From IMG/VR virus record IMGVR_UViG_3300018078_000004, positions 1-31,018 of that record: 31,018 nucleotides of DNA. The stretch is one strand, 5' to 3'. Origin of the DNA: a virus. Shown here in pieces: positions 3,367-9,914 of the stretch; position 1 is the stretch's first letter, and every line of letters starts with the position of its first letter. Position numbers and translations under genes: made by a program. The notes under the pieces were generated by a model. It made no database searches and was not told the origin of the DNA. It saw only the letters and a list, made by a program, of their open reading frames with translations.

Positions 3367-3867
3367 GTGACACGACGATCAACAGCTATGTCTCACAGAA
3401 CCGTAGCTAACGGACTATCCGTCCCTTGGAGTACACTGATTAGCACGATGGCGTTCGGAGTGATCGTAGCGGGAGCCGGTTGGTCGCTGTTCCAGACTCA
3501 GTTTGCTTCCCAGGCTGAAATCGTCAAGCAGAACAAAGAGAGCGCAGAGCGGATGATTACCAACCTGCGTCGCGATCTTGAGGCGCGTGACACCGACCTC
3601 AGGACTGAGCACAGTTTTCTGCGCGGCAGATTGATAACTATTCAGGGCGAACTGGTCCACGAGAAGGATTTCAGTCAGTTCAACATTGGCTTGAGGGACC
3701 GACTAGACCGGCTCGACAAGCAGCTGCAGCAACTAGAGACGACGCGGCCGTCGAGCCCTGAGCTACAATCGACCGCGAAGGCACTCGACAGTCAGGTCAA
3801 TCGAGTTGAGGAGAGAGTTCGACAACTTGAGATGTTCCTGCGAGGGTCACCTCCGACGGCACATTAG
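3367..3867 (+). CDS. Membrane-anchored coiled-coil protein, possible inner-membrane spanin
   Basis: Begins with GTG at 3367 directly after the previous stop; ATG at 3388 is an alternative. Neither has a strong Shine-Dalgarno. The 166-residue product has one N-terminal hydrophobic helix (about 25-42), then a long charged coiled coil (about 50-160) rich in Arg, Asp, Glu and Leu (EARDTDLRTEHSFLRGR, RDRLDRLDKQLQQLE). One short cytoplasmic N-terminus, one helix and a long periplasmic coiled coil is the i-spanin (Rz) topology. With the adjacent endolysin and holin-like genes this is the likely role. No outer-membrane lipoprotein partner was found, so the label stays tentative. The 3' end overlaps the convergent gene by 4 bases. 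Confidence 0.55.
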   Translation: MTRRSTAMSHRTVANGLSVPWSTLISTMAFGVIVAGAGWSLFQTQFASQAEIVKQNKESAERMITNLRRDLEARDTDLRTEHSFLRGRLITIQGELVHEKDFSQFNIGLRDRLDRLDKQLQQLETTRPSSPELQSTAKALDSQVNRVEERVRQLEMFLRGSPPTAH

Positions 3868-5105
3868 TCGCTCTGACCGCTCAGTCGTTCTTCTCGCGTT
3901 GTGGGCTGATAGCCCTGGAAGCTGTTGCCCTGGATGCTTATCTTGAGCATTCGGGACTTGACCATAATATCGAGTACTCGCATGATCGAATGAGCGGGTA
4001 CGCGCTCGCGCAAGAAGTGGACTACGCGATGTTCCCCGACTGGCTTATTTTCTTTGGAGTAGATCATCCACACATAGTTCCAGGCCTCTTCCATTGCGGC
4101 CGAGTCTCCTCCAGTCATCATTGACTTGAAGATGTCTGGCATGTACCGCTCGGCCTCGGTAAGCCAGTTTAAGGCCTCGCTGTAGTGTTCAATCCCGATA
4201 ACTCTGTCGCTCGAGTGGGATATGCTTGATATCATGCATAGTTTCAGCAGATGAGCGACTCGCCGAGAGTTATAGTACTGTAGCTTTTGATGGGCGGGCT
4301 CGGGCTTACAGCCGCCACTTACCCAGGCTTTGACTGCCTTGGCTGCGGGGGTGGTGAAGGCCATTTGTCCATATTCAGTGGCGATCGTCTTGAGATCGTG
4401 AAGGAGATCTCCTCGGAGACGACCGGTGAGGACGGTGATGTCAGCGTCACCGAAAGGGTCTTTAAGTACCCTATCACCTGAATAGATGAGTATCGTTCTG
4501 GAAACGAAGCCTTGATCCCAAGCCCCCGCAGGCATAACCTCGTTAAGATATGAAGGAGTACACGCTCCCAGTAGGTTGATCTGCGGATGAGCGATTTTGA
4601 TCCTAAGATCCTTCCCGCGTCTCTTCTGATCCAGCGTAAAGCCATCGTATATGTCCGTCAGGTTGTTCATGAGCGAGTTCTCCCAGGCTGGGATCAGCAC
4701 GCCAAGCTCACGAGAGATGACTGTAAGAGAGTTGAACTCCACGTAGGGGTCTGGCCCCGCGAGTAGGGTCAGTCGTCTGACTGACTCGTTCAGGGCGTCA
4801 ATAAGACTCGCCGAGGTCATATCCGAGGGGCCGACTTTTAGCTCTGGCACCTCCCGTAACATAGACTCTCCGAAATGGATCGCCTGTCCCTTGCCAATTC
4901 CGGGGGGTCCCACTAAGAGCACGTAGAGGCCCGGATATAGGTTTGAGCCCATAGTCCGAACCCAGAGTTTTCGTTCCATCGCGGCTGCTATGAAGAAGAT
5001 CGCCACCCACTTGCGGAATAACGGAGGGGAAGGTAGAATTTCCGTGTACTCTTGGTATGCGTCGATCCAGCTGCCGAGTCGCCTAGTTACGGGAGCGGCG
5101 CTCAT
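3864..5105 (-). CDS. P-loop ATPase, DUF3987-like replication protein
   Basis: A 413-residue protein with a clear Walker A motif, LLVGPPGIGKGQA (about residues 62-74), followed by an Asp/Glu-rich segment and an acidic VISRELGVL stretch likely to be the Walker B/sensor region. The arrangement (N-terminal WIDAYQEYTEILPSPPLFRKW, then Walker A, then helical C-terminus) resembles phage and prophage DUF3987/YfjI-type proteins linked to primases or helicases. Its place after the DNA polymerase suggests helicase-like or loader function in replication. The start ATG overlaps the polymerase end by 23 bases in another frame. Enzymatic activity is inferred, not shown. Confidence 0.65.
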   Translation of the reverse strand: MSAAPVTRRLGSWIDAYQEYTEILPSPPLFRKWVAIFFIAAAMERKLWVRTMGSNLYPGLYVLLVGPPGIGKGQAIHFGESMLREVPELKVGPSDMTSASLIDALNESVRRLTLLAGPDPYVEFNSLTVISRELGVLIPAWENSLMNNLTDIYDGFTLDQKRRGKDLRIKIAHPQINLLGACTPSYLNEVMPAGAWDQGFVSRTILIYSGDRVLKDPFGDADITVLTGRLRGDLLHDLKTIATEYGQMAFTTPAAKAVKAWVSGGCKPEPAHQKLQYYNSRRVAHLLKLCMISSISHSSDRVIGIEHYSEALNWLTEAERYMPDIFKSMMTGGDSAAMEEAWNYVWMIYSKENKPVGEHRVVHFLRERVPAHSIMRVLDIMVKSRMLKISIQGNSFQGYQPTTREERLSGQSD

Positions 5106-6570
5106 CTGGCCACTTTGAAAGTCCGCCGGGATTATCTTTTGTTGCCTTACTCCAGTTCCATCCCACTTGGACTTCTACGGGGACGACGAACTGTCTACCT
5201 CCCTCCAGTTCGATCGGAACCCGCATGGCCGAGAGTATCTGCGGCAAGATTTCATTCTCCCTCTCCTCTGAGTATTGCATCAACAGTGAGTCATGACCTT
5301 GTAACAGAAGTTGAACTGTGTTCAAGCGCCACACGTTCATCATAGCGTTGTTCATCTCGTCGGCTGTCATGGACTGCCCCATATGGGCTACAGCCTGTTT
5401 AAGGGTATCTCGTTCGTCGCGCTTACCAAAGAACCAGCGCTTGCGCCCGAGCGGTGTAACGAGGTTACCCGTCTCGATTAGCTGCGTTTGTATCCATGCG
5501 TGCAGTCGTGGGATCGCCGGAAAAGTCTTGAAATAAAGCGTCTGAAACTCTTTAATAACGTCTTGGTCGATCTTGGTGTGCTTCGACATCTCATAGGGGC
5601 TTCCCAGGTAATTCGTACCGTGGCCAAGCACCTTACACATATGGCGCAGTCCATAATGGCGGTAGTAGGGCTGTTCCGCGATCCTCCGATCCTCACTGAG
5701 TGAGTTAGTCCAGGGCAGATCGGGTCTTGACATTCTAGCGACCGTAGTGTGGAGATCACCCGACTCACAGGCATCCAGATATTTTCCATCTCTGAACACA
5801 TTCCAGCACAAAGCTCCTATGTTGCGGCTATCAGCCTGTTCAAGATCGACGTTAGCGAACTTCATCCCTGGGTCGGCAACGACTATTCTTCGTAATCGCT
5901 CCTCAATGTTCTGAAGATTTCCGCCTGTACCAAAGTCATTGAGGCTAGAAGAAAATCTACCTGTTGTTGTTCCGGCAATGTTATAACTCGTCCTGAGCCT
6001 GCCATCTGGATCAATTTTCGTTTCAAGGACACCAATCTTTTTTCCAAAGTCTCTAAGAGCGAGAATATGTCCAATAATTGGCTGTGCGATAAAGTGTATC
6101 TGTAGTCGCTCAAGTGCGTCACGGTTGACTGTTCGGGCGAGTTGCCCGGTAGCGTTTCGCTTTCTAATCTCCGGAAGCTTGAGAATATCATAGAGTAGAA
6201 TAGCGACAAGGGCATTCGATCGCCATGCTCGAGTTCTTCCCGAATTTCTGAAATCGGTATATCCGACTCCATCATGAACGATGTGATAGAGGTTCCGTTC
6301 GAGTCTCTCAGTATCACGTGTATAAGAGTCGATTGCCAGTCGTCGTTCTCGCTCATCTATCAATACTCCATGAAGGTTCATCTCCATAACCGGAGCCTGA
6401 AGCGACCGCGACAACGCGTAGGTACCGCCGGTTAGATTATCCAACTGCGGAAGCAGCGCCTCAAGGACTTCGAGGGTCACACAACAGTCGAGGCCATTAT
6501 AGATCCACAAGCGCTCAGTTTCGGACTTTGGGTCGCCGGGGCGCAGGGCGTCGGTGCGAGTGACTTTCAT
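5083..6570 (-). CDS. Family A DNA polymerase with only the last motif of the 3'-5' exonuclease
   Basis: A 495-residue PolA-type polymerase. Visible motifs: TTTGRFSS...NLQN (201-221), motif A VDLEQADSR with catalytic Asp242, motif B with Arg309, Lys313 and Tyr321, and motif C QGHDSLL with His426-Asp427. The position matching E. coli Phe762 is His317, which is unusual. The position matching Glu710 is Asp247. At the N-terminus, IYNGLDCCVTLE (Tyr24, Asp28) matches Exo III of a DEDDy proofreading domain. Exo I and Exo II are in the separate upstream protein at 7059-8090. The start is ATG 6570, not the open-frame ATG at 6603, because it overlaps the stop of the 38-residue membrane peptide (ATGA). 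The role is phage DNA synthesis. Confidence 0.9.
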   Translation of the reverse strand: MKVTRTDALRPGDPKSETERLWIYNGLDCCVTLEVLEALLPQLDNLTGGTYALSRSLQAPVMEMNLHGVLIDERERRLAIDSYTRDTERLERNLYHIVHDGVGYTDFRNSGRTRAWRSNALVAILLYDILKLPEIRKRNATGQLARTVNRDALERLQIHFIAQPIIGHILALRDFGKKIGVLETKIDPDGRLRTSYNIAGTTTGRFSSSLNDFGTGGNLQNIEERLRRIVVADPGMKFANVDLEQADSRNIGALCWNVFRDGKYLDACESGDLHTTVARMSRPDLPWTNSLSEDRRIAEQPYYRHYGLRHMCKVLGHGTNYLGSPYEMSKHTKIDQDVIKEFQTLYFKTFPAIPRLHAWIQTQLIETGNLVTPLGRKRWFFGKRDERDTLKQAVAHMGQSMTADEMNNAMMNVWRLNTVQLLLQGHDSLLMQYSEERENEILPQILSAMRVPIELEGGRQFVVPVEVQVGWNWSKATKDNPGGLSKWPDERRSRN

Positions 6571-6683
6571 TCGGCAACCATAACTATGGCTATGATCCAA
6601 CAAAGGATGAAAAATAGAACAGATACTGCGATCTGCCCTAGCAGAATAACGTCGAGCCAGTCATTTATCCAGGGCCGCTTCAT
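6567..6683 (-). CDS. 38-residue membrane peptide between exonuclease and polymerase genes
   Basis: A short gene with a polar start (MKRPWINDWLDV), one strongly hydrophobic helix (about residues 13-36) and a GTG-free coding frame ending in VAE. Its ATG overlaps the stop of the 38-residue gene upstream and its stop overlaps the polymerase ATG, both as ATGA. The double coupling is the main evidence that it is translated. No family is recognised. It sits in an insertion-like position inside what is normally one gene (exonuclease-polymerase), so it may have no replication role at all. Confidence 0.6.
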   Translation of the reverse strand: MKRPWINDWLDVILLGQIAVSVLFFILCWIIAIVMVAE

Positions 6684-6796
6684 TGCCACTCCAGCCACAG
6701 TGCCTCGCCCCATGTGATAGACATTGTGACTATGTCACAGCCAACGAGATATTCGGCGTAACAACTGGTATTGCAGTAGACTCGAAGGAGGATCAT
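6680..6796 (-). CDS. 38-residue peptide of unknown function
   Basis: The frame starts MILLRVYCNTSCYAEYLVG and ends in a Trp-rich stretch (ITWGEALWLEWQ). Three cysteines lie in the first half. Its ATG overlaps the TGA of the KTSC gene and its TGA overlaps the ATG of the next membrane peptide. Translation support is the coupling chain and the absence of any gap. I do not recognise it; the sequence is too short for fold inference. Confidence 0.5.
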   Translation of the reverse strand: MILLRVYCNTSCYAEYLVGCDIVTMSITWGEALWLEWQ

Positions 6797-7056
6797 CGGC
6801 GCACCTGAAAGTGACTGTTGAAGAACTCACCCTTCGACGGGGCTGCTACGAAAGCGTCGAAGAGTTCTCGATCGCCCTCATAGCTATAGCTGCCGCCACG
6901 AATGAACTCTACAGTGATAACGTTATCCGAGCGCCACCCGATCGTGCGAATGGCAGTGGACGAGACAGGGATAGTTATATCCTCGTGCTCTTCGTCATCG
7001 TCCTCTGTGAGGGCCTTTTTTAGAAGGCCGACCGCGATTAGTCGAGCTAGTGACAT
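6793..7056 (-). CDS. KTSC-domain protein
   Basis: An 87-residue protein whose C-terminal part (about 30-86) matches the KTSC pattern: SSTAIRTIGW, then VEFIRGGSYSYEG, then FVAAPSKGEFFNSHF. KTSC domains are small beta-rich modules common in phages and sometimes fused to nucleic-acid enzymes; their biochemical role is not settled. The N-terminus has a short hydrophobic start and an acidic run (EDDDEEHED). A strong AAGGAGG sits inside the last codons of the glycosylase/exonuclease gene just upstream. It is placed between the two halves of the proofreading domain, so a structural link to that enzyme is possible but unproven. Confidence 0.8.
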   Translation of the reverse strand: MSLARLIAVGLLKKALTEDDDEEHEDITIPVSSTAIRTIGWRSDNVITVEFIRGGSYSYEGDRELFDAFVAAPSKGEFFNSHFQVRR

Positions 7057-7058
7057 TG

Positions 7059-8090
7059 TCAGTCCTCCTTTTTGATAGTACCTTTGTGTTTAAGACGAAT
7101 ACCGAGCTTCCATGCGCTTTCATTTGTATATACTGATCCAAGATAGTCAAGCCCTTTTGGAGCTTCCGGCTGCAGAGCGTGGTGTAAAAGCATCGTGTCG
7201 TGGACAGCGTTCCTGACAGGAACCCCGTACGTCTTCCACAAGCGGGACATATCAAATATACCATTCTGGAACACCTTTGCTACAGGAGAGTCTAGCACCT
7301 TCCGCACCCAGGCCCAGGCGGCCATCTCGGCCTCGAGTGAGGGCCAATAGTTTCCGCCCGGCTTTCGTAGGTCCTCGAACGGCACTACGAGTGCTATGTC
7401 GATCGCGGGCGAAAAGCCTATGCAGGTTATTCGATCCCCTCTGGTTTCGATATCCACAGAGAGATAGGTAGCTCTTGCGATGAACTTTTCGGCGAACCAG
7501 TCGAGTTCTGAGAGGAGCGGTTCGGTATATATGGATCGCTGAGGGCGTCGTATCTCTGGGTATTCACTTTCGCGACGTGCTTTTTGTAGATCGAGGATAG
7601 TCACATGCCTAGACTCGTAGCTACCTTGGAGGATATAGGAGGGGTGGAATGTTGGGAGGCACTTTTTTCCTGCCAGAATGGAGGAACTTGCGACTGCCCC
7701 ACGAAGTTTCGATATTCTACCGTCACGTAGTATTGCCCAGGCGGCAGTTCCCCCGAGACAGACAATGACATTTGGATCAGCTTTAGTAAGTTCTGCGTAA
7801 AGTCTGTCGAGTTCAGGGAGAAATTCATCGCGGATGTACTTGCCAGATGATAGCGGCGGGAGCGCATGACGAACCTCCTTACGGGTTGCACATAGGTTCT
7901 CGATCTTATTAGTCGGGCGCGGCCGCAAGTTGAAGCAGTTCGTGAGAAAGCAATCGGCTCGGACGATCCCGGCCTCGGTCAACATAGAGTTCAACTGCCA
8001 GCCCGCAGGCCCGACGAATGGCATCCGTGCACGCTCCTCGTGCTCGCCCCAGGCCTCTCCGACGAGGGCTATTTTATACTTTGTTGACAT
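7059..8090 (-). CDS. Uracil-DNA glycosylase-like domain fused to the N-terminal part of a 3'-5' exonuclease
   Basis: This 343-residue protein has two parts. Residues 1-170 look like a family 4/5-type uracil-DNA glycosylase: VGEAWGEHEE (10-19), MPFVGPAG (23-30) and FHPSYIL (148-154). Residues about 195-343 look like a DEDDy exonuclease: Exo I YLSVDIET with Asp213/Glu215, Exo II AKVFQNGIFDM with Asp280, and then the HDTMLLHHAL...GLDYLGSVY segment that usually precedes Exo III. The protein stops before Exo III, which is found in the polymerase protein. A related arrangement, glycosylase plus polymerase, is known in SPO1-like phages. The start overlaps the upstream gene by 17 bases. Proofreading would need assembly with the polymerase. 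Confidence 0.8.
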   Translation of the reverse strand: MSTKYKIALVGEAWGEHEERARMPFVGPAGWQLNSMLTEAGIVRADCFLTNCFNLRPRPTNKIENLCATRKEVRHALPPLSSGKYIRDEFLPELDRLYAELTKADPNVIVCLGGTAAWAILRDGRISKLRGAVASSSILAGKKCLPTFHPSYILQGSYESRHVTILDLQKARRESEYPEIRRPQRSIYTEPLLSELDWFAEKFIARATYLSVDIETRGDRITCIGFSPAIDIALVVPFEDLRKPGGNYWPSLEAEMAAWAWVRKVLDSPVAKVFQNGIFDMSRLWKTYGVPVRNAVHDTMLLHHALQPEAPKGLDYLGSVYTNESAWKLGIRLKHKGTIKKED

Positions 8091-8295: not shown

Positions 8296-8468
8296 TATGG
8301 TCTCCACGGGACGCCACGGAAAACTCGATAGGCCAATCTATGCCCCGCTTTTTGGCAGACTATATAAGCATTCTGTCTTGACATTTCGAGTATTCGTGCG
8401 ATTTCCGCATAGCTCTTGCCTTCAAGGAACAGATCAAGGGCCTTTGCGCGTTTCTCCCAATCGTGCAC
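8295..8468 (-). CDS. Small helix-turn-helix protein, start uncertain
   Basis: The segment ALDLFLEGKSYAEIARIL followed by EMSRQNAYIVCQKAG reads as a classic helix-turn-helix of the resolvase/sigma type, where recognition residues follow the A-E-I-A turn. The frame stays open far upstream inside the methyltransferase gene. I chose GTG 8468 (57 residues) because AGAAG/GGAAG precede it and it limits overlap with the methyltransferase end to 35 bases. It is likely a small DNA-binding regulator, perhaps of this gene block. Its C-terminus overlaps the next gene's ATG. Confidence 0.6.
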   Translation of the reverse strand: MHDWEKRAKALDLFLEGKSYAEIARILEMSRQNAYIVCQKAGHRLAYRVFRGVPWRP

Positions 8469-9774
8469 CCGCTTCCGCTTCTGTGGCTTTTCGAAGTCTT
8501 CTACTTTTTTCCAGGGCCTCTTTTGCCAATAGGGCGAATTCTGAGCTGACTTCAATTCCCAAGCAGTTTTTACAGCCAAGAGATTCAGCCGCTCGCAAGG
8601 CACTGCCACTTCCACAAGTGGGATCGAGCAGAACCGTATTCTCGTCGCACAGCATCCCAAAGAAGTGGCGCAGCATTGGCTCGGGTTTTTCTGACATATG
8701 GCGGTCCCGTACTGTTGGAGCAGCGTAAGCGTTAGCCACTGCTCGAACGATCTTGCGGTCTCCGCGGCTTCCAAAAAGGCATGTTTCATATATCTGTCGA
8801 GGGCCACGTTCTGGGTCAGGGAGGATACCAGCGCCATCGCTTTTCATCCATATTAGAGGTTGGGGATTGATATTCCAGCCCATACGTTCGAGGGCGCGTG
8901 CAGTGGGCTCGTAGAGTCTGCTGTCGCCCTTGCGCATAGCGAACCAAAACATCAGATGGCATGACTGCGCCGTTAGGCGCTTGGTGGTTATCTCGAGAGC
9001 TGTCATGAGACGCTCCCACGTCTCGCGAGTATCGGTATAGCCTCCATGCGAGGCTGCTCCGCCCTGATTGAACTCATTAGCCTCGATCCCATAGGGAAAG
9101 TCACAGTGGATAAAGTTGAATCTGGAGCCCGTGGCTCTTTCCGACTGAGACCACTCTACGAAATCAGCAACCTGGATACTTTCCTGCGGCTGCTCGCCTT
9201 CGAGTTTCACGCCACCAAAGGTATTATGAAGCTTTTCTATCCCCTCCTGATAACGACGCTCAAGCGCCCGTTCGGTTATGCCAGCGGCTGTGGAGAGCTT
9301 TGGTGCTTCCAGCACGAGCTTGTTCCCACGTCTCATTTCCTCGTCGATCTGAAGAAGCCGACCAGTATGCTGTGGGGATAGACCAATAGCGCTAGCAGTA
9401 TCATTTTGCCCCCAGTTGGTTTCCTCGCGCGCGCGAATAGAGTGATATCGAGCTACGGCGCGGACTTGGTCTTGCCAGGATATGTCCTGGCGTTTGATGT
9501 TCTCTTCGAGTTCGATAGCCTCGAGTTTCGCGGGCTCGAGTTCATCCACAAATTGAACTGGGATATTCGTCCATCCGAGCTTCGTACAGGCGGAAAGTCG
9601 CCGCTCGCCAGCGACCAGATCGCGCTGACGGGTTACGACGATAGGGTGAATAAGTCCGAGACGACGGATGGAGTCCATCAGAACGTCGATGTCCTTGAGT
9701 TCCCGTCGTTGGCGCTCGTCCCGCTTGACTGTGATGCTGTCAAGCGGGACCATATGGAAAATTCCAGAAGTCAT
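8434..9774 (-). CDS. ParB-like nuclease/partition domain fused to DNA methyltransferase
   Basis: A 446-residue fusion. Residues about 5-145 match the ParB/Srx fold: VPLDSITVKRDERQR, LGLIHPIVV, LVAGERRLSA (GERR 56-59) and ELEENIKRQDISW, then an HTH-like stretch ASAIGLSPQHTGRLL. Residues about 218-425 form an amino-methyltransferase with motif IV as DFPYG (225-229; the usual form is DPPY) and motif I as DPTCGSGS (384-391), in the order seen in beta-class enzymes. SEKPEPMLRHF is also typical. It probably methylates adenine or cytosine N4 at a specific site, for self-marking or regulation. ATG 9774 overlaps the upstream stop (ATGA). No partner restriction enzyme is visible. Confidence 0.85.
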   Translation of the reverse strand: MTSGIFHMVPLDSITVKRDERQRRELKDIDVLMDSIRRLGLIHPIVVTRQRDLVAGERRLSACTKLGWTNIPVQFVDELEPAKLEAIELEENIKRQDISWQDQVRAVARYHSIRAREETNWGQNDTASAIGLSPQHTGRLLQIDEEMRRGNKLVLEAPKLSTAAGITERALERRYQEGIEKLHNTFGGVKLEGEQPQESIQVADFVEWSQSERATGSRFNFIHCDFPYGIEANEFNQGGAASHGGYTDTRETWERLMTALEITTKRLTAQSCHLMFWFAMRKGDSRLYEPTARALERMGWNINPQPLIWMKSDGAGILPDPERGPRQIYETCLFGSRGDRKIVRAVANAYAAPTVRDRHMSEKPEPMLRHFFGMLCDENTVLLDPTCGSGSALRAAESLGCKNCLGIEVSSEFALLAKEALEKSRRLRKATEAEAGARLGETRKGP

Positions 9775-9914
9775 GGTACGTCTACCTTCTGTAGCGCTTC
9801 TTCTACATCCCTCATCATATCGAATGCTCGAAGTTTCTTTTCTTCTGTGAGTGACATTTGCTGAGCCCATATAGCGAGCAAGGACATAAGCGCTAGCAGC
9901 TGCGTAAGAGTCAT
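9771..9914 (-). CDS. 47-residue peptide with hydrophobic N-terminus
   Basis: The gene encodes a hydrophobic stretch (LTQLLALMSLLAIWAQQ) followed by a charged amphipathic helix (EEKKLRAFDMMRDVEEALQ). ATG overlaps the stop of the coiled-coil gene upstream and its stop overlaps the ATG of the ParB-methyltransferase, both as ATGA. AGAAGG near its end can serve as the Shine-Dalgarno for the fusion gene. No known family. It could be a membrane-associated helical adaptor, but function cannot be assigned. Confidence 0.65.
   Translation of the reverse strand: MTLTQLLALMSLLAIWAQQMSLTEEKKLRAFDMMRDVEEALQKVDVP

Follow-up and report, generated by a model that had tools for sequence, protein, structure and literature searches.

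Proofreading motifs of a family A DNA polymerase divided between two genes in a clade of phages

How could a phage DNA polymerase proofread if the motifs of its 3'-5' exonuclease are encoded by two separate genes? The question is raised by the IMG/VR virus record IMGVR_UViG_3300018078_000004, the 31,018 bases of which form the window analyzed here, with all split-polymerase genes on the minus strand. A sequence-only reading of this DNA by a model had described a DEDDy exonuclease distributed over two proteins with three small genes in between, and its coordinates, gene sizes and residue numbers were correct on re-reading of the sequence. The motifs (Exo I DxE, Exo II D and Exo III YxxxD) are all present, not in one polypeptide but shared between the genes at 7059-8090 and 5083-6570. 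With a probability of roughly 0.85, sequence and model data suggest that the products of these two genes are the subunits of a single proofreading family A DNA polymerase whose DEDDy site is completed in trans. The features that bear on this interpretation are the following.

7059-8090, minus strand: N-half, a uracil-DNA glycosylase (UDG) domain and the first exonuclease part (343 residues, from the translation)
7581-8078, minus strand: UDG domain of the N-half, residues ~5-170 (PF03167)
7446-7454, minus strand: Exo I of the N-half, D213/E215 (residues read from the translation)
7251-7253, minus strand: Exo II of the N-half, D280 (residue read from the translation)
5083-6570, minus strand: polymerase half, 495 residues with a head of ~21 residues, the Exo III helix and the family A polymerase
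6499-6501 and 6487-6489, minus strand: Exo III of the polymerase half, Y24 and D28, respectively (from the translation)
5149-6219, minus strand: family A polymerase part, residues 118-474 (PF00476, E value 1.6e-27)

The divided exonuclease in the window and its relatives

Both proteins match phrog_17 (length 1445) in consecutive stretches, namely 479-788 for the N-half and 804-1239 for the polymerase half, which marks them as two fragments of what was a single ancestral protein. The Pfam matches of the N-half consist of UDG (PF03167, E value 4.9e-20) and a truncated DNA_pol_A_exo1 (PF01612) that covers positions 17-129 of the 173 in the profile; the Exo III helix is absent from this protein and sits in the polymerase half. 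Foldseek matched the UDG domain of the N-half model to UdgX and family 4 UDG, and the NCBIfam UDG_fam4 score was under its cut-off. Sequence and model place this domain in the UDG superfamily, as a family 4/UdgX-like member.

We searched IMG/VR separately with each half and collected the loci with both halves side by side. Of the 117 locus entries that have both halves (75 non-identical pairs), every one encodes them as separate genes and none as a fusion. A second search, started from the basal branch, yielded 60 more such loci, which are likewise all split. Wherever both halves were read, they were adjacent. The cultured Caulobacter phage Kuura (OQ067476) has the same split, with two genes between Kuura_029 and Kuura_026. 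Since the identical split recurs in every close relative, it is not due to chance. The sampling was by similarity to the window, Kuura and the relative L081, so that any fused clade member could have gone unnoticed. Relatives in bacterial genomes, sought as a clue to the host, were not found.

Outside this clade, 113 locus entries (94 non-identical) were unsplit, and the gene interrupted in the window is thus contiguous in relatives. A tree obtained in a single FastTree run on joined sequences grouped the 66 split pairs included into a single clade (support 0.993) free of fused members, beside ~90 unsplit relatives, and the nearest unsplit relatives were of the Microcystis phage Mel-JY34 type. 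This monophyly fits a single split event.

The catalytic residues were kept wherever they could be read in the 75 pairs (D213 and E215 in 74/74, D280, Y24 and D28 in 75/75), over pair identities of 37-94%, and in 14 diverse pairs (37-56% identity) all five were among the invariant columns. The 60 further loci retained Exo I and Exo II throughout, and 59 matched the Exo III pattern; the sole exception, L258, still has the Tyr, Asp and Thr in YNGYDVCGT. The median ratios of nonsynonymous to synonymous distances (dN/dS) within the close subclade were 0.083 for the exonuclease part of the N-half, 0.070 for the Exo III segment and 0.081 for the polymerase, all approximate values because many synonymous distances were saturated. 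By this measure, purifying selection acts on both exonuclease pieces as strongly as on the polymerase. The UDG part (7581-8078 in the window, and its counterparts in relatives) had a median dS of 0.85 versus ~2 for the exonuclease and polymerase parts, possibly owing to recombination of the UDG segment.

A complete exonuclease elsewhere in related phages would speak against a division of labor between the two proteins. A scan of 15 long related contigs, some of which may be incomplete, for PF01612 and PF00929, the only exonuclease families searched, returned PF01612 in the split gene only and no PF00929, in Kuura as in the others. This argues against a spare exonuclease of these families.

Structure prediction is consistent with a shared fold. 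We modeled the L075 pair, whose halves abut in frame across a single TAG, as one chain in which the TAG was read through as Gln, using an alignment with 84 unsplit relatives. The model (predicted local distance difference test score, pLDDT, 86.7; predicted template modeling score 0.87) folds confidently as a UDG followed by a Klenow-type polymerase, and its residues 181-833 align with Pol I large fragments over 538 residues (Z 32.5, root mean square deviation 3.8). In a profile (hidden Markov model) alignment, Exo III falls on the YxxxD of Klenow. The junction region, residues 321-360, is a disordered, low-confidence loop that contains the split point and is directly followed by the Exo III helix at ~93. 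The N-half of the window, modeled alone from an alignment of window and viral contig sequences only, reached a pLDDT of 90 with residues 332-343 disordered. The confidence of residues 301-320 was 75-76 in this model versus 91-93 in the joined L075 model, a drop that is only suggestive because the two models used different alignments.

The earlier proposal that a working DEDDy site would need both proteins is in line with the invariant residues, with halves that rebuild the Klenow fold in the model, and with the lack of a second exonuclease in the 15 contigs. We infer that the halves associate physically and are active as an exonuclease, which very probably works only once both proteins have joined. 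The ancestor would have been a single protein with UDG, 3'-5' exonuclease and polymerase, in which a single cut fell in the flexible loop that links Exo II to the Exo III helix; all sampled descendants would since have made two polypeptides. The N-half would contribute the UDG and the exonuclease beta-sheet with its D/E/D residues, the C-terminal half would contribute the Exo III helix (Y, D) and the polymerase, and the former would dock on the latter like the Klenow exonuclease domain, completing the two-metal DEDDy site in trans.

Several points weigh against this interpretation. The invariant residues could in principle serve an exonuclease role other than proofreading. The joined model is a single chain of a relative, in which the read-through ties the halves together, and the alignment behind it consists of unsplit relatives. 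The tree comes from one FastTree run. Furthermore, read-through of the stop could restore a single chain in a minority of phages with halves that abut in frame, such as L075, an option that is inapplicable to the window.

The gap between the halves

Three small genes and a ribosome-binding site lie at the interruption in the window.

7063-7070, minus strand: embedded ribosome-binding site AAGGAGGA, formed by the codons of the C-terminal KED of the N-half just 5' of the next start codon
6793-7056, minus strand: KTSC gene, optional gap cargo (87 residues; PF13619, E value 2.1e-9)
6680-6796, minus strand: cargo gene of 38 residues, ATGA-coupled, with a homologue (71%) in the gap of L002
6567-6683, minus strand: cargo gene of 38 residues, ATGA-coupled to the polymerase half; one stretch looks transmembrane-like by eye

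The KTSC match scored 37.4 bits (cut-off 25), and no homologue was found of the membrane-like gene at 6567-6683. The five genes had been described as all joined by ATGA overlaps; this holds for three of the four junctions, whereas the first, between the N-half and KTSC, reads TGA-CA-ATG and has its Shine-Dalgarno sequence within the final codons of the N-half. A strict Shine-Dalgarno-like word was present in the last 18 nucleotides of the N-half in 50/75 relatives versus a background of 6.2%. As judged from these sequences, the conserved C-terminal KKED/KRDE of the N-half doubles as the ribosome-binding site of the following gene. We set aside the idea that the KKED tail is selected as a docking peptide, which is unneeded since the same codons form this site; the tail might nevertheless have a docking role beside it.

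The distance between the halves varied from -4 to 2083 nucleotides among the 75 pairs, and so did the content: KTSC genes were found in 29 gaps, HNH in 10, DUF1937/DUF4406-type in 10 and DUF7768 in 7, in addition to many singletons and domains such as DUF6378 and DUF3102. Within the fetched stretches of relatives, KTSC was seen only in the gap, which it occupies throughout one subclade. The longest cargo seen was an open reading frame (ORF) of 522 residues in L014 (7415-8983) with no Pfam match. No gap gene at all was present in L039/L040, L047, L050 and L075; apart from L075, the halves of these relatives meet at junctions of -4 to -1 nucleotides in another frame. The nesting of L047, L050 and L075 among gap-bearing lineages indicates that these lineages lost their cargo with the halves still separate, or that other lineages acquired cargo repeatedly. 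The gap is a variable cargo slot with turnover of its content, and after the cut it would have come to house small operon-coupled genes, KTSC among them.

Alternative explanations and origin of the split

Proofreading might have been lost, as the sequence-only reading had offered as its alternative, with the exonuclease segments persisting as structural relics whose only role, as in Bst or Taq, is to support the fold of the polymerase. The divided domain and the modest Pfam scores of its exonuclease part would suit this view, which is contradicted by five catalytic residues that are invariant in all readable copies and by dN/dS values of both exonuclease pieces as low as that of the polymerase; the relic domains of Bst and Taq have lost their catalytic carboxylates. 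We consider such a loss quite improbable. The N-half could instead be mainly independent, combining uracil-DNA binding or glycosylase activity with a stand-alone nuclease, while the polymerase half works without it. It is a separate gene, is predicted to fold alone (pLDDT 90) and carries a family 4/UdgX-like UDG domain, yet it lacks the Exo III helix and loses confidence at residues 301-320 when modeled on its own, albeit with a different alignment. It would also fail to explain why Y24 and D28 are conserved in the polymerase half. Moreover, the two genes are adjacent wherever both were read. An independent N-half therefore appears improbable.

Joining of the halves after transcription or translation, by intron, intein, frameshift or read-through, would yield one mature chain and might be expected from the frequency of group I introns in phage polymerase genes and from the L075 halves that abut in frame across one TAG. 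We found no Rfam intron at gathering score in the window and 19 relatives, nor any at E values up to 1 in the gap; these empty scans rule out a group I or II intron in the interruption. The earlier view that an intron or a sequencing error was unlikely can be put more strongly, as both are excluded. Moreover, the gap carries translationally coupled genes, the gap proteins scanned gave no intein match, the N-half closes with the embedded ribosome-binding site and a start codon of its own opens the polymerase half. Where the halves meet out of frame at -4 to -1 nucleotides, splicing has nothing to remove. The chance that the mature enzyme is one chain is therefore close to negligible. KTSC, finally, had been put forward as a helper, and the position of KTSC and the small genes between the halves, their translational coupling and the presence of KTSC throughout one subclade would agree with a role as required assembly factors of the split enzyme. 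Given that KTSC occurs in only 29/75 gaps and is absent where the halves abut, it is not a required partner, and with the turnover of gap content and the relatives without any gap gene we regard such a role as very improbable. Two subunits that meet in trans thus remain our preferred reading.

The cut itself probably arose via a stop and translational restart, whether or not an HNH homing endonuclease was involved. Two independent events in the same loop were found among the unsplit relatives: in L184, a stop is combined with a GGAGG motif and a restart, without any insert, and L254 carries an additional ORF that is HNH-like by eye and without a Pfam match. The window has no endonuclease gene at the split point, and HNH_3-type genes are present there in 10/75 split relatives. 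Homing endonuclease insertion and a simple stop-restart are both plausible, and the data permit either order of events.

Cuts at other sites were also observed. The unsplit-type relatives L151/L157 are cut before Exo I, between UDG and Exo I, and the cut of L157 holds an HNH_3 gene (4626-4967). The polymerase domain is split in L128 (3663-4217), L153, L154 (5686-5958) and L159 (5923-6573), and also in L148/L152; the gaps of L128, L154 and L159 hold unrelated small genes, a methyltransferase-like one in L159. Phage ctLwi270 (L130:1727-4364) is cut just past Exo III, so that the full exonuclease stays with the UDG half.

It is possible, though we consider it unlikely, that the split is adaptive and makes proofreading a detachable subunit, with the N-half joining or leaving the polymerase half. 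If so, cargo genes and embedded ribosome-binding sites would set how much of one half is made relative to the other, and through this ratio the phage could adjust its fidelity or link uracil sensing with proofreading; the lack of re-fusion in the sampled lineages, even with an empty gap, would reflect selection for two subunits.

Comparison with known polymerases and split enzymes

The closest known counterparts are the unsplit UDG-exonuclease-PolA phage polymerases of phrog_17, such as those of Microcystis phage Mel-JY34 (XAI96477), phage ctMlz233 (UOF77826) and a Desulfofustis phage (WBK39748). They have the same domain order and catalytic residues as the split pairs but are single chains of ~780-860 residues, in which the loop from WK to the Exo III Tyr comprises 16-22 residues versus tails of 15 + 23 residues (medians) in split pairs. 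The neighborhood is shared as well, with a ParB/methyltransferase gene upstream and a DUF3987 or primase gene downstream. In the window, a ParB_N + N6/N4 methyltransferase fusion gene (8434-9870) lies upstream of the polymerase genes, as methyltransferase or ParB-annotated genes do in unsplit relatives, and a DUF3987 ATPase-like gene (3864-5105) lies directly downstream of the polymerase half; several relatives likewise have the polymerase followed by a DUF3987 or primase-annotated gene. The E. coli Pol I Klenow fragment and other Pol I large fragments have the same exonuclease and polymerase fold, and so does the phiLo family A polymerase (9qhs), which matches the N-half too, but all of these are single chains.

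Kuura is a cultured member of the clade with the same split, in which Kuura_029 is annotated as 'hypothetical protein' and Kuura_026 as 'DNA polymerase'. The Kuura paper names a DNA polymerase, and a term search of it found neither exonuclease nor glycosylase (PMC9959647). The N-half and the seemingly exonuclease-free polymerases of such phages would accordingly be mis-described. Proofreading of a family A polymerase would here be separable by gene, in that the N-half can be added, omitted or titrated; the locus would also provide engineered polymerases with a natural place to split and illustrate a route from a phage polymerase to a multi-subunit enzyme.

Active split phage enzymes associated with homing endonucleases include Aeh1 NrdA, Aeromonas phage 25 gp43 (43A/43B) and T4 topoisomerase gp39/gp60 (PMC2988022), which differ from the present case in being a family B polymerase or other enzymes, with no family A DEDDy site. 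In the OM43 phages MEP401/MEP402, PolA occupies two ORFs with a small ORF between them, and the authors suspected an intron (PMC10580990); unlike in the window, that cut is inside the polymerase domain and leaves the exonuclease intact in one ORF. In the searchable literature, which covered few subscription papers, we came across no account of a family A polymerase split within its DEDDy exonuclease. The locus seems to be a naturally occurring, clade-wide example of two proteins that share one proofreading active site. Split phage enzymes are known, and it is this split site and its fixation throughout a clade that seem to be undescribed.

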